This document shows positions 36,735 through 57,321 of a DNA stretch of 64,000 bases, piece by piece. Source of the DNA: Gammaproteobacteria bacterium (GTDB lineage: Bacteria; Pseudomonadota; Gammaproteobacteria; Pseudomonadales; IMCC2047). The stretch lies in assembly GCA_021773395.1 (NCBI GenBank), contig JAJFKB010000024.1, positions 282,741 through 346,740 of the forward strand, in the 5' to 3' direction. Position 1 is the first letter of the stretch. Every line of letters begins with the position of its first letter. Under the pieces are notes generated by a model. The model had not been told where the DNA came from. It did not search any database and saw nothing but the letters and a program-made list of their open reading frames with translations. The position numbers and the translations under genes are program-made.

Positions 36735-36813
36735 AGCCCAAGCTTACCGTAAAATGAGCATCTTAAGTAAGAGAGGATGATCTAAAAGTCGTCTTAATAA
36801 GTAAAACCGAAGA

Positions 36814-37983: not shown

Positions 37984-38001
37984 ATAACTTACACCTGAAC
38001 T

Positions 38002-39786: not shown

Positions 39787-39871
39787 GATTATTAGCGTCC
39801 TGATTGTTGGTTCTGTACTCAATTCTATTTTTGCGAAGTGACGACTCAAGCTCACCCAGCCTGATAACTCA

Positions 39872-40117
39872 CTACTTTTTTTTACGAGACCGGAATTGGT
39901 GTATAGCGACAGAAATTACGGCTGCCAGTTGTGTGTCCGATTGAGGCGCAGAGCTACTGGGTTGTAACAACGGCTCTATCTCCGGCTCGGGGAAAAGCTT
40001 AGCCACGATTTTTGACATCAACGTAGTACCGATGACCAATAACGTGAGGAACAAAAATACCATGCCCATCCCGTAAGCCATCAGCGTAAAACCTTGATTT
40101 AGTAGATTACCTGTCAA
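39872..40117 (-). CDS. oadG: Oxaloacetate decarboxylase γ subunit
   Basis: The small membrane anchor that assembles the α and β subunits. A single helix ([26 protein letters not shown]) is followed by a short Pro/Glu-rich region ([15 protein letters not shown]) and a basic end. I begin at a TTG at 40117, giving about 81 residues, because residues read from the other TTG at 40216 look non-coding for this family. No ATG fits and no ribosome site is clear, so the start is uncertain. It heads oadGAB. Confidence 0.78.
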
Positions 40118-40263
40118 AGTGATGCCTACTCTATCCCAATAAACATAATAACAACCTAACCTGCACCGCGACGTTAAGACAGACGATGAATTACCCTTTT
40201 TTACCGCTGCTGGCAATATACCTGCTGCTCAATGTCTATTCAACATAATCCACTCGTGAAATT

Positions 40264-40284
40264 ACCCCTGACAAATGCAGGGGT
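40264..40284 (-). terminator. Possible terminator after the AraC gene
   Basis: ACCCCTG (40264–40270) pairs with CAGGGGT (40278–40284) over seven bases with a 7-base loop. The minus-strand run after it is only TAATTT, so termination may be weak. Confidence 0.4.
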
Positions 40285-40359
40285 TACAACTAAAGCGATA
40301 AGGTTTATATGATAGCAACAAGGAGGAAAATTAAAACGATTTTATCGTTAATTTTACCG

Positions 40360-41391
40360 TTATTTTTTTAAAGTATCGGAGGGAGACTCACCAAATTTTT
40401 GCTTATACTCAACAGAAAATTTGCCCAATTGGGTAAAACCCCAGGCAAGCGCAATCTCCGTGACATTCCGATTTGCCATATCGGAACCTTTCAAATCAAG
40501 GTGCACTCGCTCCATACGTACGGACTTAAGATACTTCATCGGCGAAGTACCCTTATGCCGCTTAAACCCTTCCAACAACGTTCTTCCACTCACTCCAGAC
40601 ATATCAACAAGCTGCGTCAAGGTGATCGGCTCCGCACAATGCTCATTAATATAGTCTTCAACACGATGTACATAATGTGGCGCAGCCACTGGCGTTCTCG
40701 ATGCCAACTCCTGAGAGTAGTTGTTTGGCTGCGCGTTTAGCAGTACCCACATCAACATTTGCTCATACTGGGCATAACCTAACGGCGCATTGTTGAGCAA
40801 AGACTGCTCATTCTCCAGCTCGGCAACCAACCATTGCACCATATGCCAAAGTGAGGCGCTCGCAGGAGAATTAAGGTCAACAGCCACTTCAAAATCTAGC
40901 GGCCTTTGTAGGTCGCACCCTAGCATCTTGCTAAGGAAGCGCTCTAAAGCTAATCGATTAATTTTGATCAGTAATTTGGAGCACTCCGCATTCCATCGCG
41001 TAGAAAATTTCTGATAAGGACTCGCCACCACACCGGATCCGGTATTGGTGACAACTTTAACGTCGCCATAGCTAGTTTCCGAAACGCCCGATAGCGGCAC
41101 CTCGATGAGGAAAAAACCCAGCTGATCAACATTGACGCTTGCTTCCGTGCCATAACGGAGATAATTGACGGAAATATCGGACAGGGGGGCATGATGAAAT
41201 ACGGCTCTATGCACCCCTTTGGAACTGCTTAATACTTTACAATGATGAGGCAGCAGCACACTCCCTATATGTGCACTTAACTCCTCAAAATCATCCGTTT
41301 TGCAAAGCATACGGCTTTGCAACGGATTTGAGTCAAACAGTGAACAACCTGTCGAGTTTTGTCCAGCGGTTGAGAAACGAGGATATTCCAT
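40360..41391 (-). CDS. AraC/XylS-family transcriptional regulator
   Basis: A 343-residue activator-type protein. Residues about 25–215 form an effector-binding region of the AraC_binding_2 type, seen in XylS- and FeaR-like regulators of aromatic catabolism. The C-terminus has both helix-turn-helix motifs: ITLTQLVDMSGVSGRTLLEG near 255–274 and NVTEIALAWGFTQLGKFSVEYKQ near 304–326, ending in the usual KFGESPSD. It lies downstream of the MFS gene on the same strand. Three promoters in the island share a box spaced like an XylS site (TGCC…ATAG overlapping the -35), which makes this gene the leading candidate to bind it. The effector is unknown. Confidence 0.88.
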   Translation of the reverse strand: MEYPRFSTAGQNSTGCSLFDSNPLQSRMLCKTDDFEELSAHIGSVLLPHHCKVLSSSKGVHRAVFHHAPLSDISVNYLRYGTEASVNVDQLGFFLIEVPLSGVSETSYGDVKVVTNTGSGVVASPYQKFSTRWNAECSKLLIKINRLALERFLSKMLGCDLQRPLDFEVAVDLNSPASASLWHMVQWLVAELENEQSLLNNAPLGYAQYEQMLMWVLLNAQPNNYSQELASRTPVAAPHYVHRVEDYINEHCAEPITLTQLVDMSGVSGRTLLEGFKRHKGTSPMKYLKSVRMERVHLDLKGSDMANRNVTEIALAWGFTQLGKFSVEYKQKFGESPSDTLKK

Positions 41392-41549
41392 CTTATCTAA
41401 TTCACGCGACCCCTAAAGACCTAAGCAGATGGTATATCCTATATTTCCTGTAAAGTCAACTTCGAACACTCCAAAAAAAATCTTAACCATTTGTTTTTAA
41501 TGATTTTTTTCGATCTCAATTTACTTTGACACCAAACAACACCAGAGAT

Positions 41550-42923: not shown

Positions 42924-44579
42924 TTATTTACCGCGCAGAGTTTCGCTCATCAAGGTAAACGCCTCTGACGCATCCCAGGGATCCACATGGACTTCAATAA
43001 CCAGGGCACCTGGACCCTGATAGTTTTCCGCAATCGCCAAAGCATTTTCCAGATCACCTTCAGTATGAACATCGATACCCTGACCGCCAAAGGCTTCTGG
43101 CAGCTTATGGTATTTCCAGTCGGCAATATCGTTAAAGGGGCCATCATGTATCAGACGCTCCGCAGTATAACCCTTATTATTCACAACAAAAATAATCGGT
43201 GCTTTGCCGTAGCGCGCCATACTGGAAAGCTCCTGCGCCGTCATTTGGAATGACCCATCTCCCTCCAGGGCGATTACACGCTGACTATCATTTGCAGCAA
43301 AGCAGGCCCCCAACGAGGCACCAAAGCCCATTCCGATAGATGCCCAATAGCAGGAGGCCACATAGGTCACCCCCTCGGGTAATTGCAGATGACTCGAGTT
43401 AATCGCACAACCCGCATCCGCACAGAGAATGTCGCCTGCTTTAACAAAATGAGCGATCCGGTCATAAAAACGTTTATTGCTCATCGGCTCATCGTTTTTC
43501 GGCTCATAAGCAACGCTGGGTTTATGCGAAAAACCTTGTTGTGGCTGCCCCTGTTCCTGCTCGAATTTATCCGGCAACTCTTCCAGCAACGCTTCGATAA
43601 AATCGGCAACCCTTACCTGTTCAAACTGCTTGTCAGCCAGAATCACCTGATCTTCCAAAACCTGTATCATTTGCTGATCACTAAGCTTTGCAGTAAAGCC
43701 TCCTAAATTAAAATCCGAGGGGACCGCGCCTAAAAAGATAACGTTATCCGCTGACTCAACGAAATCCTTCACCGGCTGCAAACTACCTGCTCCCTGATAC
43801 AATCCAATACATTCCGGCATATGCTCTATAAAGTCAGCCTTACCGATAAACATGGTCCCACAGGGAAGGCCCTTACGTTTAATCAGATCAATCACCCTAT
43901 TCTGAAGATTCGATCGATGAATTTCGTGCCCAGGTAGTATGACGGTTCTTGCACCCTTCATAATTCGATCGACAACCAACTCGACCGACTCTTTCAAAGA
44001 GGACTTATCACTAACAGCTGCAGTCGTTACCAATGGCTCAGGCAAGCCACAAGCCGTTGTTTGAATATCCCTTGGAAGCTCAAGATATACCGGCCTTTTC
44101 TCCGCCAGGCAGATCTGTAACGCTTCATCAATATCCTGAGTTGCCGTCGCTGGATTATCAAGCAATTTGGTGTGGATCGTTACCTGTTCAAAGATTTTCA
44201 TCGAGGCTTCGTACCTATTGGGCAGCGTGTGGTGCAAAATTGGCTGCGTCCGATAGGATTCAGTTTCCGGTCCACCCGATATAAAAACGACCGGCACCCG
44301 CTCGGCAAGTGCTCCAGCAGCCGCATTAACAAAACTGAACGCTCCCGGACCATAGGTCGCTGCAACCGCTCCGAGCCCATTAATACGCGCATACCCATCC
44401 GCAGCATAACCTGCATTCAGCTCATTACAGGCCGCAACATGCTCTATACCACTACCTTCCATTTTCTGAAAGAAGGGCAGAATGAAATCTCCCGGAATAC
44501 CAAAAATATGGTTCACTCCCAATGACTTCAACCGCATCAACAAATAGTCTGAAACTGTTATATTTCTATCGTTTGTCAT
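42924..44579 (-). CDS. ThDP-dependent 2-oxo acid decarboxylase (pyruvate/phenylpyruvate decarboxylase family)
   Basis: A 551-residue thiamine-diphosphate enzyme that turns a 2-oxo acid into an aldehyde one carbon shorter. The catalytic Glu is E53 (CNELNAGYAADGYAR) and a His-His pair lies at 116–117 (ILHHTLPN), as in pyruvate decarboxylases; the ThDP motif is GDGSFQMTAQELSSMARYGK … NNKGYT. Pyruvate, phenylpyruvate, indolepyruvate and benzoylformate are all possible substrates. GAGGTAA precedes the ATG. A hairpin lies between it and the upstream aldehyde dehydrogenase, so it may be partly independent. The dehydrogenase is the natural next step for its aldehyde product. Confidence 0.87.
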   Translation of the reverse strand: MTNDRNITVSDYLLMRLKSLGVNHIFGIPGDFILPFFQKMEGSGIEHVAACNELNAGYAADGYARINGLGAVAATYGPGAFSFVNAAAGALAERVPVVFISGGPETESYRTQPILHHTLPNRYEASMKIFEQVTIHTKLLDNPATATQDIDEALQICLAEKRPVYLELPRDIQTTACGLPEPLVTTAAVSDKSSLKESVELVVDRIMKGARTVILPGHEIHRSNLQNRVIDLIKRKGLPCGTMFIGKADFIEHMPECIGLYQGAGSLQPVKDFVESADNVIFLGAVPSDFNLGGFTAKLSDQQMIQVLEDQVILADKQFEQVRVADFIEALLEELPDKFEQEQGQPQQGFSHKPSVAYEPKNDEPMSNKRFYDRIAHFVKAGDILCADAGCAINSSHLQLPEGVTYVASCYWASIGMGFGASLGACFAANDSQRVIALEGDGSFQMTAQELSSMARYGKAPIIFVVNNKGYTAERLIHDGPFNDIADWKYHKLPEAFGGQGIDVHTEGDLENALAIAENYQGPGALVIEVHVDPWDASEAFTLMSETLRGK

Positions 44580-44698: not shown

Positions 44699-46138
44699 TT
44701 AAACCTTAGGATTATTAACCGTAATCCACTTCCATTCTGTCAGCACATCCAGTTCCGCTTCGGTACCTTCGCGACCGAATCCGCTTAAACCGGCACCCCC
44801 AAAAGGTGGGTTAGGTTCATCCTGAATCGTTGGACGGTTAATATGCACCGCACCAGATTCTGCTTGCTGCGCCATGGAAAGCGCTTTCTCAATATCACGC
44901 GTGAATATGGAAAAGCTCAAACCGTAATCGGTATCATTTGCCTTATCCATAGCTTCCTGGATCGTGTCAAAGGTATAAAGGCTGGTTACGGGACCGAAGG
45001 TTTCATTTCGGCAAACCTCCATGCTTTCATTGACTCCGCGTAAAATGGTCGGTTTGCAACGATTACCCTCCCAGTCTCCTCCAGCCAGTAATTCAGCGCC
45101 CTGCTGTTTCGCTTGTTCAATGTGTGTGCGCACGCGATCACGTTGTTTTTCACTAATAATGGGACCAACAAAGGCATCCGGCGACCGCAAGTCACCTAAA
45201 CTAACCTGACCCGCTGCAGCCACAAATTTCTCGGTAAACTCTTCCGCTATTCCTCTTTGCAGCAGAATTCGACTTGACGCCATACAAGCCTGACCCTGGA
45301 AGAAGAAAATACCAAAAACCGCCGCCTGGACGGCCGCATCAATATCCGCATCATCCAGCACAATCAGGGGGCTCTTACCGCCCAGCTCCAGAGTGATCGG
45401 CTTGAGGTCTTTGGCCGCCAGCTGAGCGACGTGCTTGCCGACTACAGGGGAACCACAGAAAGTTATCGAGCGGACTTTTTTGTGCGAAGTCAGCACATCA
45501 CCAATTTCAAATGGATTCCCGGTCACTACATTAAACAACCCATCTGGCACTCCCGCTTCATGTAATATTTCAGCAAACTTAATCGAAACCTGGGACGAAA
45601 ATTCAGATGGCATATGAACCACGGCATTACCGCAGGCAAGCGGCATTGCGCATTGCTTGGTGACTTTCAACAGTGGCACATTAAAGGGTGAAATGGCCGC
45701 AACTACGCCTACAGGAGAACGCACTGCCATGCTGAACACATCCGGTGACTCCGAAGGAATTACCTCTCCGCGGATGCGGCGGGGCACGCTGGCAATAGCA
45801 CGTAGCGCATTGATGCAATAATTAACCTCAAACTGCGCCTTAAATAATGGCGATCCAACTTCATCAACAAGTATATCAAGAAATTCCTGACTATCACGCT
45901 CAACCAGCTCAGCCGCCTTCATAAACCAAAGTTCTCTCTGATGCGCGAGCAAGCCCTTATTCGCTTTAAATGCGACTAATGCTGTTTCCACCGCCTTGTT
46001 GACATCTTCTGGCGTGGCGCTGGCAATGCGCGAATACAGCGAATCATCAACTGGATTAAAATCGTCAAGATACATTCCAGAGGAAGGTGCAACCCACTCG
46101 CCACCAATCCATAATTCGGTCTGTTTAACATCGGTCAT
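44699..46138 (-). CDS. Aldehyde dehydrogenase with altered cofactor motif
   Basis: A 479-residue NAD(P)-dependent aldehyde dehydrogenase. The base Glu is E251 (LELGGKSP), the nucleophile Cys is C285 (FFFQGQACMASSR), and the oxyanion Asn is in SPFNVPLL. The usual KPSE lysine, which contacts the cofactor ribose, is replaced: GNAVVHMPSE at about 171–180 has Met. Overall it resembles benzaldehyde/salicylaldehyde-type dehydrogenases. AGGAGG precedes the ATG, and an AraC-type box with a -10 lies at 46268–46316. It starts a unit leading to the decarboxylase and MFS genes. The aldehyde substrate is unknown. Confidence 0.9.
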   Translation of the reverse strand: MTDVKQTELWIGGEWVAPSSGMYLDDFNPVDDSLYSRIASATPEDVNKAVETALVAFKANKGLLAHQRELWFMKAAELVERDSQEFLDILVDEVGSPLFKAQFEVNYCINALRAIASVPRRIRGEVIPSESPDVFSMAVRSPVGVVAAISPFNVPLLKVTKQCAMPLACGNAVVHMPSEFSSQVSIKFAEILHEAGVPDGLFNVVTGNPFEIGDVLTSHKKVRSITFCGSPVVGKHVAQLAAKDLKPITLELGGKSPLIVLDDADIDAAVQAAVFGIFFFQGQACMASSRILLQRGIAEEFTEKFVAAAGQVSLGDLRSPDAFVGPIISEKQRDRVRTHIEQAKQQGAELLAGGDWEGNRCKPTILRGVNESMEVCRNETFGPVTSLYTFDTIQEAMDKANDTDYGLSFSIFTRDIEKALSMAQQAESGAVHINRPTIQDEPNPPFGGAGLSGFGREGTEAELDVLTEWKWITVNNPKV

Positions 46139-46267: not shown

Positions 46268-46316
46268 ATTAAAAAGTAAAGGGGGAATGGCGTCTATCCC
46301 ATAATGGCAGCGATTT
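46268..46316 (-). promoter_or_regulatory. AraC-type box and -10, aldehyde dehydrogenase promoter
   Basis: On the minus strand: AAATCGCTGCCAT, TATGGG, ATAG (46294–46316), then 20 bases and TTTAAT (46268–46273). The first 17 fixed positions are identical to the box before the hydroxyacyl-CoA dehydrogenase gene. The ATAG overlaps the -35 position. Confidence 0.6.
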
Positions 46317-46409
46317 GTGAACAGCCATCAATCCTTAGTTAAAGGCCTATTGTCTCCCTAATACTTAATTATTGTCCAGTTACCGCTTCAGGCGGTCTAC
46401 AGGTACTCA

Positions 46410-47885
46410 TCAGGAGTATCCAATATAGGTATGGAATAAACCTTGCGGATCATATTGGCTACGCAATTTTCCAAGCCTTACCCAGCCTTCCTCTGTAAAG
46501 CACTGTTTGACATGTTCAGGATAGCGCACGAACTCTGTCTCGTTAATATAATGTCCTTTGGAAAAGCCCTGATCCATGGTCGCCTTAATCTTATCCATCC
46601 AAAGATAGTTGGGTTCCGTATGCTCAGGTTTATCTGCCAGCGCATAATAAGACATGTAGTCATCGGCAAAGTGCGGTAAGGCAGTATCCGTGCGCTTGCT
46701 AGGATTAACCCCCCACACAGTAATCACAAATGAACGTTTGGATACCGACTCCCTTAAGATATCGACCATTTTCAGAACGGCCTCACCAAGCCTATCAGTC
46801 CACATATTATCAATACTGGTCCTATCCGGTGCGGTGGCGTCCGTGATCAACTGACCCTCGAACAGTTCCGGGAAGGTATGAGGCCTGTCGACTTTTTTCA
46901 GATAGGCCTTTTCCGCGATCGGGCTGGCAGCGAAAGGCGCCAATATTTGCTGCGCCTGGGCTTTGCTGTCAGCAAATGCAATCACCATAACAATAAAGGC
47001 AATACCCTCTTTCGGCATACCCGGAATATCAGCACTGTGTTTTAACACACCCAGTATTTCCGCATTAATATCTTTTTCCTTGGCCAGTTTTTCCAACTCA
47101 CTAACGGCCATCGGAATATGCTCTTCAGTCAGAATATAGGCACTCTTGGTAATCGCTCTGGGCATTGGATACATTTTGACATGATAACGGACAATAATGC
47201 CGAAAAAGCCTGGCCCGGCTCCTCTTATCGCCCATAATAAATCTGGATTTTCATTTTCATTGACGTTAATCAGCTTACCATCGGCTGTAACAATTTCAGC
47301 ACCGATGACTGAACGACAGGAAATATCCCATTTTTGTAGATTCCAGCCCAAGCCTCCACCTAACAAAAACCCACCCAAACCAACGACGTTGGTATGGGCT
47401 GTCGGAAACGCCAGGCCCTGGGCATTCGCAAGTTCCTGAAACTCCTGTGCGCGCATACCCGGCTGTAACCAGGCTGTTTGGTTTTCAACATCAAAGCTGA
47501 CTTCACGCAACTGGGATAAGTCGATCATTACCGACTCATCGCGAAGATGCGAGGCAGAAATACTATGCCCGGTACTACGAATGGATACTTTGAGCCCATT
47601 TTCCCGCGCATAATTGATCGCATTAATAACGTCTTCCGTTGAGGTAGCAAGCACCATAGTCTGTGGGTAACGTTTGGGCTTACGAACATACCAGGTCATT
47701 CCTTGACGCCAGTCTTCATAAAATTTGTCTGTCTTTTGAATGACCGTCCCTTTAATGCGGCTCAATGCATCACCTACCTGTTTGGCGAAAGCAACCGATG
47801 TATTAAAACTCGCCATCACACCCAAGGCACAGACTGAAGTCAGCCTTTTTAAAAAGGTGCGACGTGTAGGCTTATGATCAACCAT
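46410..47885 (-). CDS. Tat-exported FAD-binding oxidoreductase (BBE-like)
   Basis: A periplasmic flavin oxidase of about 491 residues. The start is the ATG at 47885 with GGGGAG seven bases before it; the protein then opens with a Tat signal (TRRTFLKRL, about 6–14). The PCMH-type FAD domain spans about 45–230, with RSTGHSIS carrying the His that may bind FAD covalently. The Cys used by doubly linked berberine-bridge enzymes is absent from the matching segment (PTAHTNVVGLGGF). A BBE-type tail ends with RSQYDPQGLFHTYIGYS. It lies between the TonB receptor and the dehydrogenase promoter, with its own upstream terminator, so it is a separate unit. Substrate unknown; alcohols, sugars and aromatic alkaloid-like amines are all possible. 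Confidence 0.85.
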   Translation of the reverse strand: MVDHKPTRRTFLKRLTSVCALGVMASFNTSVAFAKQVGDALSRIKGTVIQKTDKFYEDWRQGMTWYVRKPKRYPQTMVLATSTEDVINAINYARENGLKVSIRSTGHSISASHLRDESVMIDLSQLREVSFDVENQTAWLQPGMRAQEFQELANAQGLAFPTAHTNVVGLGGFLLGGGLGWNLQKWDISCRSVIGAEIVTADGKLINVNENENPDLLWAIRGAGPGFFGIIVRYHVKMYPMPRAITKSAYILTEEHIPMAVSELEKLAKEKDINAEILGVLKHSADIPGMPKEGIAFIVMVIAFADSKAQAQQILAPFAASPIAEKAYLKKVDRPHTFPELFEGQLITDATAPDRTSIDNMWTDRLGEAVLKMVDILRESVSKRSFVITVWGVNPSKRTDTALPHFADDYMSYYALADKPEHTEPNYLWMDKIKATMDQGFSKGHYINETEFVRYPEHVKQCFTEEGWVRLGKLRSQYDPQGLFHTYIGYS

Positions 47886-48219
47886 AGAAAAACTCCCCGT
47901 TCGTTTTATTTCAACAACAGTAACAACGACAATAAAAGGTGAATCTATTACCCGACTTAATTGCCACAAACCTGTAAGTATATGACTCTTGGAGAAGACC
48001 GAACAACCTCCAACTAAAAAGAGTCATTCAAAACCTAGCACTATGTAGTAAGGATTAGATTACGCTGACCCATCAATTCCTGACGATATAATTATTTTTT
48101 TATGTAATGCAACCGAATAATAAAATCATCACCCCGATTGGACCAGTCAACCGGGGTGATGTTCAGTTCGTTTCTTACTTTTAGAAACTTATTGTAAAAA
48201 CGCTTTTTCCTTAACTAAA
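47886..48219. other. Intergenic gap, TonB receptor to FAD oxidase
   Basis: This 334-base gap holds the terminator of the receptor gene at 48110–48161 and the promoter and leader of the FAD oxidase gene. I looked for the AraC-type box found at three other promoters here and did not find it. No small ORF with a ribosome site stood out. Confidence 0.5.
48110..48161 (-). terminator. Intrinsic terminator of the TonB receptor gene
   Basis: CATCACCCCG (48127–48136) pairs perfectly over ten bases with CGGGGTGATG (48152–48161). On the minus strand the stem is followed by ATTTTATTATT. Confidence 0.8.
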
Positions 48220-50586
48220 TCAGAAAAAGTTATACTTAACGGACAGTGACCATTCGAACGGACGTCCATAAACTTGTTCTACATAAGCTGCAGAAGTCTG
48301 GAACGATGAGTTACCGGTAATGATATACGCTTCATCCGTAATATTTCTGAAAGACAACAGGCCTTCCCAACGGCCATCATTGGTTTCCAATGCCATCGAT
48401 GCATTGAGCATGTCATAGGAATCCTGATGGATCTGGGGCGTGTTAATCGCGTCATTTTCCTGTTCATCATGGTATGACCAATCCACTCTTGGCGTCAATG
48501 TCGCCCAATCACCAAGATCAAAAGTATAGGCTACTCCAAGAGCAGCGCTTAGCTCTGGCGTGTTAACCAGTTTAAAACTTTTATCTAACGGTGTCAGGTT
48601 GGTGGTGACACGGGGATCCAACTTATCATATTCTGCGTCGATATAACCCACAGAGGCCGTGACATACCAGCGATCAGTCGGCACCCAGGTCAGCTCAACT
48701 TCAGCACCATCAATGGTTGCTTCACCACCGTTATAGGTAATAGGGTTAAAACCCTCACGAATAATGATCTGCAAATCCGAGTAATCCGTGTGAAACATCG
48801 CCACGTTCAGACGGACACTGCTATCGAGCAGGTCGGACTTGAAACCTACCTCATAGCTTTCAACCGTTTCGGGATCAAAACTGCTTGGCACATCAGTAAA
48901 TTGGGTAAATCGCTGATCGTACCCGCCACTTTTATAACCCTCTGAATAGGTTGCATACACCATAAAATCATCCGTCATCTGGTAAGACAGGTTAAGCATG
49001 ATATTGGTGTCATCAAATTCTTCTTCAAACCAAGCAAAAGTCGCCAACCGTTCTCCCGCAGCAAGAGGTGGTCCGCCCCCTGACTGCAGGTAGAACCCGG
49101 CAAAACCCGGAAATACATTAGGAAATAAACCACTGGCGGAGGCATCACCATAGGAGATTTGGTCAGGCTTGAACTGCTTGGTATCTTCGGTATATCTGAC
49201 CCCGAAAGTTAATGCCAGTTTATCGGTCATATCATAAGTGGCTTGGAAAAAGGCCGCTTCTGACTCGTTGTCAAAAATACCACCACTCTGGATTGAACCC
49301 ACAGGTAGAAACACCGGATTTTTGTTAAATCCATCTTCCTGGAAGTAGTAGAGCCCCAACAACCACTTCAATCTGTCTTCCATAGCGACACCGGAAAACT
49401 GAAGTTCCTGACTGAACTGATCCTGCTCGTAAAAATCTCGAGTAGCAAAAATAATACCGGGCGTATTATCCCCATCACGCGACGATTCCATATCCATATC
49501 ACGATAACCGGTGATCGACTTAATGGTCAGCCAATCGTTAACATTCCAGGTCATTTCGACACTCGCGCCCCAGATATCCAAATCTGACTTAGTCGGGAAG
49601 GTGCCTCCTGATTTATATTCCCCGTAAAACGTATCGGGTGTTAAGCAACCGGGAGCACCGCCGGCGCCAACGCCAGGAGGTGGAAACGAAGGTGGTCCAG
49701 GGAGTACCCCGAAGTCCGGATTGATATTAACCGCTGTACAACTGGCCAGCACACCGTTGGCAAAGGTACCAAACGCCGCCTTGTCATTAACACCACCAGT
49801 AACACCGGGCGTACCATTTTCACGAATCTTGGTTGCATCAGCTATGGCATAAAGCTCGAAATCGTCAGTTGGCGTCCAGAGCAATGAACCACGACCGGCG
49901 AGGCTATCGTCATCACCAGTGCTAGGCCCACCAAAGATTCGGTCAACATAACCGTCTCGCTTGCGTGAAGATATCGCAAAATTAGTTAGCAAATCCTCTG
50001 ATACGGGCATGTTGACCTTGGCAGTTGCATAACGCATATCATCATCGCCCACCTGAAGCTGTACGCTGCCACTAGCTTCCGGCTCAGGTCTTTTTGAGTA
50101 AATTGCAACGGCTCCACCAATAGTGTTACGGCCAAACAGCGTTCCCTGTGGTCCGCGCAACACTTCAATTCGCTGTACATCAATAAAATCCAGTACGCCA
50201 CCAACCGAACGTGCCATATAGATACCATCAACATAAAGTCCCACACCCGGGTCGGTGACCGGTGTGAAGTCAGTCTGGCCGATACCACGAATAAAAATTT
50301 GTGCGGCTGAACTTGAACCCGATGATGGGGATGCCGAATCAAAGGTCAGGTTCGGCGTTATATCACTCAATTTATCCGTAGAATCAATTTGCCGGTATGC
50401 CAACTCACGATCAGTGAATGCCGATACGGCTATCGGTGTAGACTGCAGGTTTTCCTCACGCTTCCTCGCAGTCACCACTATTTCTTCCAAAGCAAAGCCA
50501 GTACTGGCCTCCTCTGCCTGTATTCCACTGCTAGCCAGCAAACTGGTAGCAATCAGCGGCGTTAAGCCATATTTAATTGTCTTCAT
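48220..50586 (-). CDS. TonB-dependent outer-membrane receptor
   Basis: A 788-residue active-uptake receptor. A signal peptide (about 1–24) is followed by a TonB-box-like segment (EEIVVTARKREENLQ, about 33–47), a plug domain (about 50–165, with VGLYVDGIYMARS and LRGPQGTLFGRNTIGGA), and a 22-strand β-barrel ending in SLSVKYNFF. The plug is of the common marine/sphingomonad type used for many carbon compounds as well as siderophores; no Fur box is seen upstream. Its place between catabolic genes suggests it brings in the island's substrate. AGGGA precedes the ATG. The 150-base gap upstream holds its own promoter region but no AraC-type box. Confidence 0.9.
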   Translation of the reverse strand: MKTIKYGLTPLIATSLLASSGIQAEEASTGFALEEIVVTARKREENLQSTPIAVSAFTDRELAYRQIDSTDKLSDITPNLTFDSASPSSGSSSAAQIFIRGIGQTDFTPVTDPGVGLYVDGIYMARSVGGVLDFIDVQRIEVLRGPQGTLFGRNTIGGAVAIYSKRPEPEASGSVQLQVGDDDMRYATAKVNMPVSEDLLTNFAISSRKRDGYVDRIFGGPSTGDDDSLAGRGSLLWTPTDDFELYAIADATKIRENGTPGVTGGVNDKAAFGTFANGVLASCTAVNINPDFGVLPGPPSFPPPGVGAGGAPGCLTPDTFYGEYKSGGTFPTKSDLDIWGASVEMTWNVNDWLTIKSITGYRDMDMESSRDGDNTPGIIFATRDFYEQDQFSQELQFSGVAMEDRLKWLLGLYYFQEDGFNKNPVFLPVGSIQSGGIFDNESEAAFFQATYDMTDKLALTFGVRYTEDTKQFKPDQISYGDASASGLFPNVFPGFAGFYLQSGGGPPLAAGERLATFAWFEEEFDDTNIMLNLSYQMTDDFMVYATYSEGYKSGGYDQRFTQFTDVPSSFDPETVESYEVGFKSDLLDSSVRLNVAMFHTDYSDLQIIIREGFNPITYNGGEATIDGAEVELTWVPTDRWYVTASVGYIDAEYDKLDPRVTTNLTPLDKSFKLVNTPELSAALGVAYTFDLGDWATLTPRVDWSYHDEQENDAINTPQIHQDSYDMLNASMALETNDGRWEGLLSFRNITDEAYIITGNSSFQTSAAYVEQVYGRPFEWSLSVKYNFF

Positions 50587-50736
50587 GATTTATCCCTCTT
50601 ACTCTGTAAACTAAACACTCAGGTTTTGCGTAATTTATCTTTTTTGTAACTTATTACGCTAATATTTCCTCTCTACACTACTACACTCACCCCAATGAGA
50701 TTAAAAAATTTTGATTCACAACCCACAGCCTGCTGA

Positions 50737-51753
50737 CTAACCTGGCTTAGGCATCAATTCCAAATGCTTGAGCAACCCTACGAAAGCTGCCAGTTTTTCA
50801 TTACGGTAGGCATCGATATCCCGGTCTTTATAGTCATAAAATCCTTGACCATCCCGTAATCCGTTTCTGTTGTTTTGCATATTCTGTTTAACAATCTCAG
50901 CCGGGGCAAAGCGCTGCTGATCAATGTTGTCGGCCAGGTAATTGCAGGCATAATACAGAATATCACCACCCCCCCAGTCTACGAACTCCAGCATTCCGAG
51001 GATTGCATAGCGCACCCCAAAGCCAACTCGAACAGCCTTATCAATATCTTCAGCGGAAGCGACGCCCTCTTCCACCATACGTGCTGACTCGTTCAGTACC
51101 AGCGCCTGCAGCCGAGACACAACATACCCGGGCGAGGCCGCACAAACGACAGGTACCTTACCGATCTTTTCAAACAGCGCCTTGAGACGCCCAACCGTTT
51201 GTTCGCTGGTATTTTCCGAAGGACTGATTTCAATCAAAGGCATAAGGTAGGCGGGATTCAGCCAGTGAGCATTAGAAAAACGTGTTTTGTTTTCAACGAA
51301 CTCAGCCAGTGTATTGGCCAGCATAGTTGAAGTCGTAGAGGCAAAAATAGCCTGCTCAGAGGCTGTTTCATTCAACCAGGCATAGGTACTTTTTTTAATT
51401 TCGGCGATCTCAGATACGGCTTCAAAAACAAAATCTGCTTTCCCTAAACAGTCTCCCGCATCTGCTTTTGCAACAATCCGTATTCGCCGCAAAATTTCTG
51501 TTGCCTGTTGTTCAGATACAGACCCAACCCCCTTTAGGAATTCAAGGTCCGCATGAATCGCGGGGAGTGTTGATTGAATCAGCGCATCAAATTTTTGTTG
51601 CGTACGATCTTCGCTATCGACAAGTGAAACGGCATATCCGGCATAGGCGAAACTCAATGCTATACCACAACCCATTCGACCGATCCCAATGACCGAAAGA
51701 TTTATTTGAGTACTTTCCAGGTTGGCCGCGAAATCTAAATCGGAATCATTCAT
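50737..51753 (-). CDS. 3-Hydroxyacyl-CoA dehydrogenase
   Basis: A 338-residue NAD-dependent dehydrogenase. The start is ATG 51753 (MNDSDLDFAANLE), after GAGAGAAG and about 15 bases from the predicted transcription start; a longer frame from 51864 would include the promoter. GIGRMGCGIALSFAYAGY (about 22–39) is the NAD-binding motif, and the C-terminal 3HCDH domain includes VSRLQALVLNESARMVEEGV. The catalytic His-Glu pair is not at the usual easily seen place: SNAHWLNPAYLMPLIEI gives H and E. It is a stand-alone enzyme of the hydroxybutyryl-CoA or L-carnitine/lambda-crystallin type, with no hydratase part. It is under its own AraC-type promoter. Confidence 0.87.
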   Translation of the reverse strand: MNDSDLDFAANLESTQINLSVIGIGRMGCGIALSFAYAGYAVSLVDSEDRTQQKFDALIQSTLPAIHADLEFLKGVGSVSEQQATEILRRIRIVAKADAGDCLGKADFVFEAVSEIAEIKKSTYAWLNETASEQAIFASTTSTMLANTLAEFVENKTRFSNAHWLNPAYLMPLIEISPSENTSEQTVGRLKALFEKIGKVPVVCAASPGYVVSRLQALVLNESARMVEEGVASAEDIDKAVRVGFGVRYAILGMLEFVDWGGGDILYYACNYLADNIDQQRFAPAEIVKQNMQNNRNGLRDGQGFYDYKDRDIDAYRNEKLAAFVGLLKHLELMPKPG

Positions 51754-51774
51754 ACATCTTCTCTCATTGGCATG

Positions 51775-51823
51775 ATTAGACCTGAAGCAACGCAGGCAAA
51801 CTATTGCAAAATGGCAGCGATTT
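51775..51823 (-). promoter_or_regulatory. AraC-type box and -10, hydroxyacyl-CoA dehydrogenase promoter
   Basis: On the minus strand: AAATCGCTGCCAT, TTTGCA, ATAG (51801–51823), then 20 bases and TCTAAT (51775–51780). The predicted start site near 51768 leaves a 15-base leader with the ribosome site, which supports the ATG at 51753. Confidence 0.65.
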
Positions 51824-51888
51824 CGACACAACCCTGCGACATTTTCCAGCCAGAGAAGCGCCAAGCAGCCGATAATTGAAAGATATAA

Positions 51889-53445
51889 CTATAGTACGCC
51901 CTTTTTAAGCAGCTGATCAATATAATCAGCCTGACGCAAAATCAGAGCAACTATTGTTAAGGTGGGGTTTTCACAGCCTACCGTTGGCAAGAGACTGCCG
52001 TCGGAAATAAACAGGTTCGCCACATCATGAGTCTGCCCCCAAGGGTTACAGACAGAATCAGCGGGATTACGACCAATACGCGCCACCCCCATATTGTGAG
52101 TTGCGGGAAACACATCCTCGGGAGCAAAAACCTGATGCGCGCCTAAAGCTCTATAGATCGCCACCCCCTTGTCCCTCGCATAATTTTTCATTCTTTGGGT
52201 ATTAGGATGATCCTGGTAGTGAATCAGCGGCACAGGAAGCCCGTTTTCATCTTTTTCCGATGGATGCAGAGTAATGCGATTTGTCGCCTGCGGCAAATCT
52301 TCACCATGCACTAACATCGCGGCCATATGGTCATAGCGGCTCATTATTTGCGCCAGCTCATCGCCCCATTTGTCACGCAGAACAATTTTGCCAATTATCT
52401 CCGGCGTAAAGGGTACCGTTAAAAACAGAAAGCCACCGCTAAAGCCTCTATTCGGATCATGGTGTCTTTCATCTTTGATAATACCCGCTTGATGCGTGCC
52501 GCGATGCATATTCACAGGTCCTGGCATCAGGCCAATAATAGGTAATGCGAAATGACGCATGTAGTTCCTGCCCACCTGATCACTGGAGTTGGCTAGCCCG
52601 TTAGGGAACTCGGGGGAATGCGAATTCAGTAAAAGGCGTGTGGTTTCTACTGCGTTTCCGGCAACGCAAACCAGCCGTGCCTTCTGCGTATGTATTTGAC
52701 CTGATGCATCCCGATAATCAACACTATTGACCCGGCCCTGACCCGTATGATTGATGCGCACCGCCATTGACTCAGGTCTCAACTCAAAATATTTCGTTGC
52801 CTCGGCGGATCTGATTTCGGTATACAACGTCGACCATTTTGCCTGAACAACGCAGCCGCTGGTGCAAAAGCCCAGTTGCAGGCAGGATGGTCTGCCATCT
52901 CTTGGCCGAGAATTAATGGCCACGTTATTGGTGTCAATCTGCTGATAACCCAGCGCCCGAGCACCGGCTTCAAGTACTTTATAGTTGTTATTTCCAGGCA
53001 AGCGCTCTATTCCATGGGTACCCGTTACTCCCATTTTATACTCTGCCCGCTCATAATAGGGCGCAATCTCGAGCGGCTCCAGAGGCCAGTCGACCAGGTT
53101 CGTATTATCGATCATGCCGTAGGTGGATTTAGCCCGAAACTCATGAGCCTGCATGCGAGGACATGAGGCCGTCCAGTGCATGGTTGTCCCTCCAACTGTT
53201 TTACAGGTCCATACCGGAAACTGAGCGTTAGCAATGCCTGTACCCTTGCGTCGGTCAAACCAGGTTAGGCGTTCAGACATCACCGCTTCATCATTAACAA
53301 TATCGTTCGGCTTGAGTCTCTTGCCCGCCTCTAGACATACAACCTTGATACCTCGCTGCGCCAACTCATTAGACAAGGTTCCGCCACCGGCACCCGAGCC
53401 AATCACAACCACCACAGAGTCATCCGTCAGGTCAAATTCCGCCAT
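51889..53445 (-). CDS. GMC-family FAD oxidoreductase
   Basis: A 518-residue flavoprotein of the glucose–methanol–choline family, oxidising alcohols or sugars. The FAD motif is VVVVIGSGAGGGTLSNELAQ (about 11–30), with GGTTMHWTASCPRM near 85–98. The C-terminal active-site region (HNMGVARIGRNPADSV, SLLPTVGCENPTLTIVAL) carries the catalytic His/Asn in NPTLT. It has no signal peptide of its own. It overlaps the end of the upstream subunit-3 gene by 14 bases, so the two are coupled, and the Tat-like signal on that subunit could carry this one out. No cytochrome subunit is near. AGGAG-like GGAG precedes the ATG. Confidence 0.9.
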   Translation of the reverse strand: MAEFDLTDDSVVVVIGSGAGGGTLSNELAQRGIKVVCLEAGKRLKPNDIVNDEAVMSERLTWFDRRKGTGIANAQFPVWTCKTVGGTTMHWTASCPRMQAHEFRAKSTYGMIDNTNLVDWPLEPLEIAPYYERAEYKMGVTGTHGIERLPGNNNYKVLEAGARALGYQQIDTNNVAINSRPRDGRPSCLQLGFCTSGCVVQAKWSTLYTEIRSAEATKYFELRPESMAVRINHTGQGRVNSVDYRDASGQIHTQKARLVCVAGNAVETTRLLLNSHSPEFPNGLANSSDQVGRNYMRHFALPIIGLMPGPVNMHRGTHQAGIIKDERHHDPNRGFSGGFLFLTVPFTPEIIGKIVLRDKWGDELAQIMSRYDHMAAMLVHGEDLPQATNRITLHPSEKDENGLPVPLIHYQDHPNTQRMKNYARDKGVAIYRALGAHQVFAPEDVFPATHNMGVARIGRNPADSVCNPWGQTHDVANLFISDGSLLPTVGCENPTLTIVALILRQADYIDQLLKKGVL

Positions 53446-53968
53446 TATCAGCTACTCCAGATTGCTTGGGCAACCAACCAATATCGTTAAAACCTCGCTC
53501 CAAATATCCACCATGCTCGATCGCAGATCCTTGATAACCCAGCTGTGACCATACCTGCCTGTTACGCAATACCAGCTCATGGGTGGTCCATCGCACCATC
53601 GCCATAAACGGTATATCAATCAGTTCAGACACCGCTTGATTCCGTTCAATTCGCCGCATCGACAACCAGGGTACCCCTGAATATTGATTTAAAGTTTTGA
53701 TCCCGTTTCGCAAGACATGATCAACACCAGGCTGGGTTGCCATCTGCATCATCAACTTCGCAGCGACTTTCCGATAGACATCAGAATCTGCAGGTTGTAG
53801 TGGCAGCAACAGATAAGCCAGCTCGGAAAGCACCGCCACAATTTGTTGATTTTCGCTGGATATTTTTTGCTTCTTATCGCTGGAGGAATTAGCATAGATA
53901 CTCCAGTGAGCCGCAGAGACTGCAAGAACCAACCGGCTCAGATGAACGATAAATTGACGCCGCTCCAT
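53432..53968 (-). CDS. Gluconate 2-dehydrogenase subunit 3 family protein
   Basis: A 178-residue small subunit of membrane-linked GMC dehydrogenases. The N-terminus MERRQFIVHLSRLVLAVSAAHW is Tat-like (RRQFIVHL). The mature part (about 45–170) is helical and matches the family pattern with LLPLQPADSDVYRKV and the MVRWTTHELVLRNRQVWSQLGY stretch. It likely helps export and dock the GMC subunit next to it. It is the first gene of its unit, downstream of an AraC-type promoter and an attenuator-like leader. Confidence 0.83.
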   Translation of the reverse strand: MERRQFIVHLSRLVLAVSAAHWSIYANSSSDKKQKISSENQQIVAVLSELAYLLLPLQPADSDVYRKVAAKLMMQMATQPGVDHVLRNGIKTLNQYSGVPWLSMRRIERNQAVSELIDIPFMAMVRWTTHELVLRNRQVWSQLGYQGSAIEHGGYLERGFNDIGWLPKQSGVADNGGI

Positions 53969-54107
53969 AAGCTACCCCATTTTGCTCGATTCCCATTAAA
54001 AACTCTGAGATAGTATATAAGCCTGGTACCAATGATTGATATTCGAATAAGGTAGCAAATATTCTGTTTAGGCAAAGTTAATGTGTCGAGCAGACGCCAG
54101 CAACTCT

Positions 54108-54132
54108 AAAAAAAAGGCCCTAAAAAGGGCCT
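54108..54132 (-). terminator. Intrinsic terminator in the GMC operon leader
   Basis: AGGCCCT (54115–54121) pairs with AGGGCCT (54126–54132) around an AAAA loop; on the minus strand the stem is followed by eight T. It can end the LysR message, but it also lies between the AraC-type promoter and the GMC genes. Confidence 0.78.
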
Positions 54133-54150
54133 GGCCATATTGGCGCTTAT

Positions 54151-54169
54151 TGTTGTGCCAGGCACAACA
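54151..54169. repeat. Perfect 19-base palindrome in the GMC operon leader
   Basis: TGTTGTGCCAGGCACAACA: two 9-base arms around one central base. It could be an operator for a dimeric regulator or fold into an RNA hairpin. Its GCCTGGC half (minus strand) can also pair with GCCAGGC in the left arm of the terminator downstream. Confidence 0.6.
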
Positions 54170-54195
54170 GGAGGAAGAGATTTAATCTGGCGCGC

Positions 54196-54244
54196 ATTTG
54201 AACACAGCTTGAAGAAGCACACTATTCGATATTGGCAGCAATTT
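54196..54244 (-). promoter_or_regulatory. AraC-type box and -10, GMC operon promoter
   Basis: On the minus strand: AAATTGCTGCCAA, TATCGA, ATAG (54222–54244), then 20 bases and TCAAAT (54196–54201). Fifteen of the 17 fixed positions match the other two boxes. The predicted start near 54189 leaves a leader of about 220 bases. Confidence 0.55.
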
Positions 54245-54325: not shown

Positions 54326-55195
54326 CTAGGTCAGACGTTTCACAAGCAGATCGACAAACAATCTAACTTTGGTAGCCAGGTGCCGATTATAGGGGTAAAC
54401 CGCCCAGTACATTGGGTCTACAGGATTGTATTGTTCCAGAATTGGGCGTAAACGTCCTGCCTGAATATCCTCTCTTAAATACAGCTCTGGCAACTGTACA
54501 ATGCCCAACCCGCTTAATGCCGCGCGCTTTAAAGTCCTACCGTTATTGGATCGCCAACTCCCCTCTACCTTAAGATCATAATGATGTTCTTCGTCTTTTA
54601 TCCGCCAGGTGGTATTGGAACCGACTAAGCAATTGTGCTGATGCAAATCGGGTATCCGGTCCGGTGTACCGTGCTCGGACAAGTAATGCGGACTCGCGCA
54701 GATTCTGAGATTGCGAGGCACAATTTTACGTGCCTTCAGGCTTGAATCAGGCAGAACGCCCGAGCGGATCGCCAGATCAAACCCTTCTGCGACCAGATCG
54801 ATAGCCCGATCAGTAAAATCTATGTCGACTCGAATATCCGGATAGGCCTTCATATACTCGATCGCGACCGGCACCACATAATCCTCTGCGAAAACACCGA
54901 CAGCCGTAATGCGTAAGGTACCGATGGGACGTGCCTGCATATCCATCACTGTCTGTTCGGCAAGTTCCAGATTACCGAGCAGATCTTTACAGTGGCTGTA
55001 AAAACTACTGCCAAGTTCCGTCAATGTTACTTTGCGTGTGGTGCGATTAAGCAGTTGCGCGCCTAGACGGTTCTCAAGGCCTGATATCTGACGACTGATA
55101 TAGGACTTGGACACTTCCATTTTGTCCGCGGCGGTAGAGAATCCCTGGTGTTCAACCACTTTAACGAAGGCTTCATACTGATCCCATTTACTCAC
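54326..55195 (-). CDS. LysR-family transcriptional regulator
   Basis: About 289 residues. I favour the GTG at 55195 (with AAAGGG about eight bases upstream) over an ATG at 55237, which has none. The N-terminal helix-turn-helix is QGFSTAADKMEVSKSYISRQISGLENRLGAQL (in short: TAADKMEVSKSYISRQISGL, about 20–39). The effector domain follows from about 90, with the AIRSGVLPDSSL segment typical of the CrgA/DsdC-like group. It is divergent from frmA, with a candidate inverted repeat between them at 55240–55277, so it may control itself, frmAB, or the GMC operon. No site for it is proven. Confidence 0.87.
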   Translation of the reverse strand: MSKWDQYEAFVKVVEHQGFSTAADKMEVSKSYISRQISGLENRLGAQLLNRTTRKVTLTELGSSFYSHCKDLLGNLELAEQTVMDMQARPIGTLRITAVGVFAEDYVVPVAIEYMKAYPDIRVDIDFTDRAIDLVAEGFDLAIRSGVLPDSSLKARKIVPRNLRICASPHYLSEHGTPDRIPDLHQHNCLVGSNTTWRIKDEEHHYDLKVEGSWRSNNGRTLKRAALSGLGIVQLPELYLREDIQAGRLRPILEQYNPVDPMYWAVYPYNRHLATKVRLFVDLLVKRLT

Positions 55196-55239
55196 CAACC
55201 AAACCCTTTGTTGCTCACGAAGAACAATATGTTGCATTT

Positions 55240-55277
55240 ATACTGTTTATAACTCAAGCAAAAACAATATATAGTAT
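55240..55277. promoter_or_regulatory. Inverted repeat between lysR and frmA
   Basis: ATACTGTTTATA and TATATAGTAT-type arms: nine of twelve arm positions are complementary across a 14-base centre. It lies between divergent lysR and frmA, the usual place of a LysR operator. An inner TGTTT-N13-AAACA is also present. Confidence 0.35.
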
Positions 55278-55341
55278 TTTACAGGTATAACGCCCCGAAA
55301 TTAGATCAGCTTAAAACAACACCACACACTGGAGTATCACC

Positions 55342-56448
55342 ATGAAAACTCGAGCAGCAGTCGCCTTTCAGGCAGGTAAACCTTTAGAAATTGTTGAGGT
55401 AGATCTCGAAGGCCCTAAGGCAGGTGAGGTTTTGGTTGAAATAAAGGCTACCGGAGTCTGCCATACTGATGCCTTCACACTTTCAGGCGATGATCCCGAA
55501 GGCGCCTTCCCAGCGATACTGGGTCATGAAGGCGCTGGTATCGTTCAGGAAGTAGGGCCAGGGGTTTCCTCTTTAAAACCCGGTGACCATGTGATTCCTC
55601 TTTATACACCCGAATGCAGGGAATGTGACTTCTGCCTGCACCCCAAAACCAACCTATGCCAGGCGATTCGTGAAACCCAGGGCGCGGGTCTGATGCCCGA
55701 TGGATCCAGCCGATTTTCGATGGATGGGAAATCTATCTTGCATTATATGGGTTGCTCCACATTCTCCAACTACACGGTGCTGCCGGAAATTGCGCTGGCC
55801 AAAATTCGCAAAGATGCCCCCTTTGATAAAGTATGTTATATCGGCTGCGGAGTCACCACTGGCGTAGGCGTAGTTGTATTCGACGCCAAGGTAGAACCCG
55901 GCTCAAATGTTGTCGTTTTTGGATTGGGCGGTATAGGTCTGAATGTTATTCAAGGCGCAAGGCTGGCGGGTGCAAATAAAATTGTGGGCATTGACCTTAA
56001 CGAATCGAAAGTACCGCTAGCCAGACAGTTTGGTATGACTGATTTCATCAACCCTAAAGGGGTTGATGATATCGTGTCTTCGATTATCGAACTAACCGGT
56101 GGTGGCGCTGACTACAGTTTTGAATGTATCGGTAACGTCAACACCATGCGTCAGGCGCTTGAATGCTGCCATAAGGGTTGGGGGGAATCCTACATTATCG
56201 GGGTTGCCGGAGCCGGACAGGAGATCTCCACGCGACCCTTTCAACTGGTAACCGGCAGAGTCTGGCGCGGTACCGCTTTTGGCGGCGCGCGTGGCCGTAC
56301 TGATGTACCAAAAATTGTCGACTGGTATATGGACAATAAAATCAATATCGATGATTTGATCACCCACACCATGCCGCTCGAAGAGATCAATACCGCATTC
56401 GATCTGATGCATGCCGGCAAAAGCATACGCTCAGTCGTGCTTTACTAG
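55342..56448 (+). CDS. frmA: S-(hydroxymethyl)glutathione dehydrogenase (class III alcohol dehydrogenase)
   Basis: Oxidises S-hydroxymethylglutathione, formed from formaldehyde, to S-formylglutathione, and can reduce nitrosoglutathione. Its 368 residues fit the family. The catalytic zinc ligands are in [12 protein letters not shown] (Cys, about 37–48) and GHEGAGIV (His/Glu). The structural zinc Cys cluster is [15 protein letters not shown] (about 92–106), and NAD binding is at [14 protein letters not shown] (about 194–207). GGAG precedes the ATG. It is followed by frmB after 33 bases, and is divergent from the LysR gene. Confidence 0.95.
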
Positions 56449-56481
56449 GGTCTGTTCACACTAATTGGATTGCTATTTGGG

Positions 56482-57321
56482 ATGAAGAAGATCAGCGACA
56501 ACCGATGTTTTGATGGCAGACAGCAACGCTACCAACACCACTCAAGCTGTTTGAATTGCGAGATGACTTTCTCGGTTTACCTGCCTCCTCTGGCGGAAAC
56601 TGAAAAGGTCCCAGTGATTTTTTGGCTATCGGGACTTACGTGCAGCGATGAAAATTTTGTCCAAAAAGCCGGCGCCCAGCGTTACGCCAGTGAACAGGGT
56701 GTGGCCATAATCGCTCCCGACACCAGTCCACGGGGCGAAGCCATTCCAGATGACCCCGAACATGACTGGGATTTTGGCATAGGAGCGGGCTTTTATCTCA
56801 ACGCGACTCAAGAACCCTGGCGGCAACACTACCAGATGTACAACTATATTTGCGAAGAGTTACCCGCAATAATCTTTAATGAACTGCCTCTCGACGTATC
56901 ACGCCAGTCGATCATGGGTCATTCCATGGGCGGCCACGGCGCATTGACCATCGCCCTGAAAAACCCCGGACGATTCAAAGCAGTATCAGCCTTTTCGCCC
57001 ATCTGCGCCCCAATGAATTGCCCCTGGGGAGTCAAAGCCTTTAGCAACTACCTGGGCAAAGATAGGGAAATCTGGGCTCAGTATGATAGTTGCGCACTGA
57101 TCAAGTCAGCAAAAGAACGTCTGCCCATTCTTTTGGACCAGGGTGATCAGGACGGATTTCTGGAAGAGCAGCTAAAGCCGAATCTGTTAAAAACAGTCTG
57201 CGAAGAGTACAGGCACCCGCTGAATTTACGCATGCAGAAAGGTTATGATCATAGCTACTTTTTTATTGTCAGTTTTATGGGTGATCATATTGCACATCAT
57301 GCGCAAGCGCTACGAAAATAG
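56482..57321 (+). CDS. frmB: S-formylglutathione hydrolase
   Basis: Hydrolyses S-formylglutathione to formate and glutathione, the second step of formaldehyde detoxification. I start at ATG 56482 (279 residues, close to the E. coli length), since the longer frame begins with a TTG. The nucleophile Ser148 lies in GHSMGGHGAL; the Asp is near residue 225 in DQGDQDGF and the His is in KGYDHSYFFI near 257. It lies 33 bases after frmA, so both are co-transcribed. Confidence 0.94.
   Translation: MKKISDNRCFDGRQQRYQHHSSCLNCEMTFSVYLPPLAETEKVPVIFWLSGLTCSDENFVQKAGAQRYASEQGVAIIAPDTSPRGEAIPDDPEHDWDFGIGAGFYLNATQEPWRQHYQMYNYICEELPAIIFNELPLDVSRQSIMGHSMGGHGALTIALKNPGRFKAVSAFSPICAPMNCPWGVKAFSNYLGKDREIWAQYDSCALIKSAKERLPILLDQGDQDGFLEEQLKPNLLKTVCEEYRHPLNLRMQKGYDHSYFFIVSFMGDHIAHHAQALRK

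Follow-up and report, generated by a model that had tools for sequence, protein, structure and literature searches.

Putative operators of an AraC/XylS-type activator at the promoters of a catabolic gene island in a gammaproteobacterium

Three boxes of one design occur only in the island

Is the catabolic island in this 64,000-nt stretch of DNA (the window) read as one regulon, and if so, which protein recognises the sequence shared by its promoters? The initial annotation had described three minus-strand promoters (P1, P2 and P3, Table 1) carrying AAATYGCTGCCAW-N6-ATAG-N20 followed by a TNWAAT -10 element, and we verified all three to the letter. P1 and P2 are identical at 17/17 pattern positions and P3 matches 15 of them; the three-way identity is 17/23 over the first 23 bp, and the pairwise identities over 49 bp are 30, 28 and 30 positions. 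Beyond the box and the -10 element the flanks show little similarity, so that the boxes do not stem from a recent duplication. The -10 hexamers are weak, the usual A at position 2 being absent.

The genome-wide scan that had been suggested as a check, run at 0 mismatches, returned three matches in 3,802,679 bases, namely P1-P3 themselves, and the reversed pattern returned none in the same genome. Since the pattern had been derived from the sites themselves, we added a de novo test on the island's eight gaps. The best 23-bp triple drawn from different gaps again consisted of the P1-P3 boxes, with 17 identical columns, compared with best triples of 10-14 columns in 100 dinucleotide shuffles of the gaps, where 14 was reached once. 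With up to three mismatches there are 66 genomic matches versus 29 for the reversed control. The 63 non-site matches have two or three mismatches; among the 27 examined, 25 lie inside called frames, and the two between frames (L139 and L155) have no -10 element at 20 or 21 nt. In L148, where the match is in-frame, TAAACT follows at 20 nt and a frame of 100 codons comes 105 nt further on, but ATAG is missing. When 57 genomes (our own and 56 relatives) were scanned at one mismatch, nine of the 56 relatives had one match, or two on separate contigs (G036), and the reversed control had matches in three genomes; we took these matches as background.

That the pattern was picked after viewing the sites, and that it has so many matches at three mismatches, would fit a repeat or a chance likeness rather than operators. 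However, its exact form is unique to P1-P3, the shuffles stay at or below 14 columns against 17, the sites are all intergenic with a -10 element at a fixed distance and flanks that are little alike, and the examined mismatch matches lie almost all within frames or lack a suitably placed -10 element; we therefore regard this explanation as highly improbable. The three-box observation is real: the exact boxes are confined to one island, upstream of its units, and this island ends in the regulator gene. The absence of a box ahead of the TonB receptor, FAD oxidase and decarboxylase genes, also proposed earlier, was borne out, as the best matrix scores in these gaps are 4.7 or less versus 31.9-33.9 at P1-P3. 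The gaps ahead of the AraC and MFS genes are likewise without a box in the matrix scan (best 4.7 or less).

Table 1. Features of the island, in window coordinates
Feature	Position	Strand	Remarks
AraC/XylS-type regulator gene	40360..41391	-	AraC_binding_2 + HTH_18
AraC gene promoter TTGACT-N17-TATACC	41431..41459	-	no box; kept in same-genus ortholog locus L022
MFS gene	41550-42890	-	downstream of P1
ThDP decarboxylase gene	42924-44579	-	downstream of P1
ALDH gene	44699-46138	-	first gene after P1
P1	46268..46316	-	AAATCGC + half-site TGCC-N6-GGATA + G + N20 + TTTAAT (-10)
FAD oxidase gene	46410-47886	-	no box; insulated
Strong intrinsic terminator	48127..48161	-	after TonB receptor gene; separates off FAD oxidase gene
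TonB receptor gene	48220-50586	-	downstream of P2
3HCDH gene	50737-51864 (long ORF)	-	probable ATG 51753; listed TTG start 51864 mechanical
P2	51775..51823	-	AAATCGC + TGCC-N6-CAATA + G + N20 + TCTAAT (-10)
GMC dehydrogenase gene	51889-53445	-	downstream of P3b
Tat small subunit gene	53432-53968	-	downstream of P3b
P3b	54012..54074	-	previously missed; tandem half-sites, then TATACT
P3b -10, TATACT	54017-54012	-	after proximal half-site, T and N21
P3b proximal half-site	54054-54040	-	TACC-TTATTC-GAATA, then T, N21
P3b distal half-site	54074-54060	-	TGCC-TAAACA-GAATA, then TTTGC
Intrinsic terminator	54107..54132	-	AGGCCC-loop-GGGCCT + U8; hairpin 54132-54115; between P3 and gene at 53968
Predicted short P3 transcript	54107..54189	-	~83 nt; putative start, placed from the -10
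P3	54196..54244	-	AAATTGC + TGCC-N6-GAATA + G + N20 + TCAAAT (-10)
Putative P1 unit	46138-41550	-	
Putative P2 unit	51753-48220	-	
Putative P3b unit	53968-51889	-	
Regulator unit		-	own promoter

Transcription units of the island and a fourth promoter

The gaps upstream of the decarboxylase and TonB genes (119 and 150 bases) are boxless, and we infer that these are the second genes of the P1 and P2 units, respectively. P2 was labelled as lying inside a gene by the frame caller owing to the mechanical TTG start of the 3HCDH frame; within the long ORF, similarity to the 3HCDH family starts at residue 53, and the P2 -10 element lies 21 nt ahead of the probable ATG. The nearest solved relatives of the GMC dehydrogenase are fructose and glucose dehydrogenase subunits. 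As to the insulated FAD oxidase, homologs with E-values of 1e-60 or better were found at the order level in 6 of 390 other genomes, with 30-39% identity. A second FAD oxidase (38%) is encoded in the same genome (G000:C26:240573-242048), on a contig that also harbors AraC_binding_2 genes.

The proposal of one promoter design serving three units holds for the boxes, which are alike, but an intrinsic terminator intervenes between P3 and the gene that follows. Since this terminator stands between P3 and the gene at 53968, and another promoter, P3b, lies past it, P3b would naturally serve as promoter for the genes of the small subunit and the GMC dehydrogenase, and is a likelier promoter of this operon than P3. 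Its -10 element is 43 nt from the ATG of the small subunit. The proximal half-site of P3b was first found with the P1-P3 matrix, as the sole other gap hit above 5 (54061-54039, score 11.3), although by the matrix alone P3b ranks 12th in the window, with ten other non-site positions as good. As a tandem pair, using an adapted half-site score set only after the sites had been seen, P3b is the best in the window at periods 15-31, scoring 17/18 at period 20 against 15 for the next pair, and none of 40 Markov resamples at period 20 reached its score (largest 16.5).

The boxes have the register of XylS and CphR half-sites

Read as TGCC-N6-NNATA, the P1-P3 box matches XylS/CphR half-sites in its 15-bp register. 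The XylS half-site is described as TGCA-N6-GG(N)TA, 15 bp in length, and the title of a paper in the reference list of the same source states that the XylS operator overlaps the RNA polymerase site (PMC5481539). In the CphR-regulated cphA2A1 promoter of Rhodococcus, the source passages give tandem 15-bp half-sites of the TGCA-N6-GGNTA type, the proximal at -35 to -49 and the distal at -55 to -69 (period 20), with CGCG and TGCG as the A sub-motifs actually found, and they describe cphR expression as constitutive (PMC6205950).

All four promoters of the island show the register TGCN-N6-NNNTA ending at -35 with a -10 element about 20 nt on, at exactly N20 in P1-P3 and N21 in P3b, where the proximal half-site begins with TACC. 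If the -10 hexamer is set at -12 to -7, the P1-P3 half-site spans about -48 to -34; thus the end of the box does overlap the -35 region, on which ATAG had been placed, but only at its upstream edge. The XylS-type arrangement proposed for these promoters is likewise retained in part: the 15-bp register and the -10 element at 20 nt are there, but a single half-site is recognisable in P1-P3, against two in the XylS and CphR promoters, the distal positions at period 20 scoring 2.5, 1.5 and 6.0 of 9. Because this defining second half-site is missing, we consider that P1-P3 would work like XylS-type promoters without calling them such. The tandem layout of an XylS/CphR-type promoter is found at P3b, with period 20. 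The strict letters TGCA and GGNTA do not occur at the four promoters, as P1-P3 have TGCC, P3b has TGCC and TACC, and GG is present in P1 only.

Compared with XylS and the Pm promoter of the TOL plasmid, as described in the passages on its operator, the island shares an AraC/XylS-type regulator, the 15-bp register and an operator overlapping the RNA polymerase site, but P1-P3 have TGCC for TGCA, NNATA for GGNTA and a missing or degenerate distal half-site, and the putative regulon here has several units (PMC5481539). Compared with CphR, the layout of cphA2A1 is matched by P3b, and a constitutive regulator gene is a further likeness; however, the Rhodococcus system has one divergent promoter versus four promoters in one island here, and P1-P3 possess a proximal half-site only, plus AAATYGC (PMC6205950). 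Among the matches listed in a literature search, titles and abstract openings name neither the box nor the island, and a passage of a paper on the ben/ant promoters states that no XylS-type consensus was found upstream of the ant promoter.

Half-site spacing is conserved in a paralogous island

The AraC_binding_2 domain is encoded by 15 genes in this genome (G000) and by 11 in the same-genus genome G001; two further genomes from the family have none. We examined these 26 genes in 24 neighbourhoods comprising 292 upstream regions, which contain 33 TGC-N9-ATA boxes. A TATAAT-like -10 element (at least 4/6, last T), with the distance counted from ATA+1, follows seven of the 33 boxes at 20 nt and two at 21 nt; the remaining distances between 8 and 36 nt each have zero to two cases. 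The seven 20-nt cases are P1-P3, two promoters of the paralog island L082 (G000:C1) together with one of its syntenic ortholog L095 in the same-genus genome, and one case in L130 that is probably due to chance.

L082 and L095 resemble our island in having one AraC_binding_2 gene, flanked in their case by genes for a TonB receptor and a PQQ alcohol dehydrogenase, and half-sites of period 20 with the -10 element at N20 (two such promoters in L082). They differ in the proximal half-sites (TGCG...GAATA/GCATA), in having recognisable distal half-sites (ending in GGATA/GCATA), and in a dehydrogenase promoter without the AAATYGC design. The sequence GGATAG-NCGN-TGCG-N6-GAATA-N-N20-TATAAT is kept in both before the PQQ alcohol dehydrogenase gene, so box, spacing and -10 element of the paralog island are conserved in a second species. 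The nearest non-orthologous AraC proteins (35-38% identity) are encoded in four genomes of another family, beside a divergent promoter with TGCA-N6-GGATA-N5-TGCY-N6-GGATCG and TAGTAT 21 nt on in three of the four; in the fourth (G331) the letters have diverged.

In P1-P3, AAATYGC corresponds to the last two letters of a distal half-site plus a 5-nt linker (ATYGC). In its place L095, L082 and the other family have GGATA-N5, and the linker of the paralog island's TonB promoter, ATTGC, is the same as in P3. AAATYGC may thus reflect a changed contact of the second regulator monomer.

Across 340 kb surrounding AraC genes in the genus, nine tandem pairs reach at least 15.5 by the adapted score at periods 14-33. 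Four are spaced at period 20 (P3b, two pairs in L082 and one in L095); none of these falls within a long frame, and each has a -10 element. The other five (periods 15, 16, 16, 25 and 26) all lie inside frames of at least 120 codons, one having a marginal ATTAAT. With the strict published letters, period 20 is in excess in the other family (8 pairs versus 0-4 at other periods) and not at the genus loci (3 versus 1-6), the latter a result that counts against the reading of the boxes as such operators. L083, L085 and L086, three loci of one family, are without a tandem pair when the adapted threshold is applied.

Matrix scanning of 19 loci around AraC homologs gave many hits of 9.5-19.5 inside genes. 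The top hit outside the window, AAATCGCTGGCATTTTG (L094, position 11197, minus strand, G001:C165; score 19.5), was rejected, as it has no ATAG and is placed 16 nt ahead of a frame of 283 codons, too near for a promoter; a matrix hit by itself therefore counts for little at these loci. At L086 (G054), an ALDH gene whose product is 69% identical to that of the island adjoins an AraC_binding_2 gene, and upstream of it (11369-11328, minus strand) we noticed GTTGCGCACGCGAGATAG-N20-TAGGGT (TGCG-N6-AGATAG). We did not use this stretch as evidence for a box, since it was picked out visually, in DNA of high GC content. At L082, L093, L095 and L083, an AraC-type gene is adjacent to the gene for a TonB receptor with about 40% identity to that of the island, a recurrent module of uptake plus regulator.

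The regulator and a model of the regulon

Both regulator domains score above their cut-offs (PF14525, 118.3 bits; PF12833, 66.1 bits), and AndR ranks first among the NCBIfam models, yet below its cut-off (170.7 versus 350 bits). The ortholog scan found one locus, L022 in G391, with a protein 78-79% identical; G391 and G001 were treated as one genome, match positions being equal. All of 817 plasmid records are below 60% identity to the AraC protein. Gene order at L022 follows window positions 35274-42000, namely MFS, AraC, a 617/596 aa protein, a 389 aa protein and a 486/490 aa protein, and the same-genus genome therefore shares the island at its AraC end. We take the 617/596 aa protein to be biotin-type carboxylase-like and the 389 aa protein to be a membrane protein. 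L022 is on the sole orthologous contig that was found; this contig breaks off within the MFS gene, and P1-P3 fall beyond its reach. The rest of the island has only local matches in G391/G001 (59-264 bases, 66-80% identity, in stretches of the TonB and ALDH genes); as G001 is 83% complete, lack of the remainder there is no proof of its absence.

We considered autoregulation and dropped it, since the gap ahead of the AraC gene has a plain TTGACT-N17-TATACC promoter and no box. As had been proposed, the 40360 protein is the likeliest binder of the boxes, judging from its location and its domains. With 15 genes of the domain family in the genome, another member could bind them, and the two designs, AAATYGC with one half-site in P1-P3 versus a tandem pair in P3b, would suit a scheme in which another of these proteins, or one of a different family, binds P1-P3 and the local AraC protein binds P3b alone. 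We think this improbable, because the local regulator's island contains all four promoters, which have TRCC-N6-NNATA and the 20/21-nt spacing in common, while the exact box is found nowhere else in the genome. LysR-type regulators are expected to bind a dyad with T-N11-A, and the P1-P3 boxes are not such dyads, which argues against the neighbouring LysR protein as their binder.

We thus favour, as the probable reading, that an XylS/CphR-type activator, most likely the 40360 protein, uses the boxes as operators and turns on P1, P2 and P3b, and a short RNA from P3. Expression of the regulator would rely on an ordinary sigma-70 promoter of its own. Once bound by its inducer, it would occupy the 15-bp half-site, which at its 3' end overlaps a poor -35 element on the upstream side, and recruit RNA polymerase to the -10 element 20-21 nt further on. 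P1 would then express the ALDH, decarboxylase and MFS genes, P2 the 3HCDH and TonB receptor genes, and P3b, through two half-sites of period 20, the small subunit and GMC dehydrogenase genes, while the P3 transcript would stop after ~83 nt at the terminator, its product being a short RNA or else a leaky leader. In that case the boxes would represent a specific operator code of XylS-like regulators from an uncharacterised branch that has many copies in the genus (15 and 11 genes), and the whole island could be read as one regulon, possibly with an inducer-controlled small RNA. The rule of period-20 half-sites with N20/21 may be used for reading the other islands of the genus.

A candidate short RNA from P3

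The terminator past P3 probably belongs to the LysR gene, and P3 would drive only an RNA of ~83 nt, a candidate small RNA or attenuated leader. The predicted RNA has a pyrimidine-rich unpaired CUUCCUCCU stretch followed by three hairpins, the last being the terminator. The fold of 54190-54105 has an energy of -27 kcal/mol (z -2.76; 0 of 200 shuffles equally stable), and both the minimum-energy and the centroid folds contain the terminator hairpin. The layout of a 3' UTR-derived small RNA is present at the level of sequence, in the order LysR end (54326), P3 and terminator hairpin. Rfam has no family above gathering for this RNA (best 20 bits versus 50) and no copy occurs in the five other genomes searched, for which reason we treat it as a candidate.

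P3 and P3b might instead be tandem promoters of one unit, with a conditional or leaky terminator that is read through into the GMC operon and hairpins that act as an attenuator. Both promoters lie in one gap on the same strand, and the GCCUGGC of hairpin 1 has its complement, GCCAGGC, beside the terminator arm, so that antiterminator pairing is conceivable. A 16-codon leucine-rich frame on the minus strand (54197-54147, MRARLNLFLLLCLAQQ) moreover stops just short of the terminator. However, its ATG overlaps the P3 -10 element, so the frame is absent from the P3 transcript, and we set aside its reading as a leader peptide; the terminator hairpin persists in both folds, and the five other genomes lend no comparative support. 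Read-through from P3 therefore appears rather doubtful to us.

Returning to the short RNA, we put forward tentatively, with less confidence than the operator model itself, that the AraC/XylS-type activator switches on this ~83-nt small RNA besides the enzyme operons. One regulator would then use two operator designs, the tandem pair for the dehydrogenase operon, and the AAATYGC-extended single half-site for the other operons and the RNA, whose CUUCCUCCU stretch could mask ribosome-binding sites. In duplex energies computed, without a control, against 43 gene starts, GMC ranks third and ALDH fifth (tied with another start for fourth), behind unrelated genes, a ranking that does not inform on targets.

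HilD is a member of the AraC family, and the small RNA DapZ ends at the dapB terminator. DapZ derives from the dapB 3' UTR and is activated by HilD, according to the source passage, and P3 would be analogous as a regulator-activated short RNA in the 3' UTR of the upstream gene, although the regulator subfamily differs and the P3 RNA is a prediction (PMC4098024). The LysR gene upstream of P3 adjoins the island and diverges from a gene for S-(hydroxymethyl)glutathione dehydrogenase (window positions 54326-57321). A further gene there is presumably esterase-like, and with the dehydrogenase gene it probably forms a formaldehyde pair.
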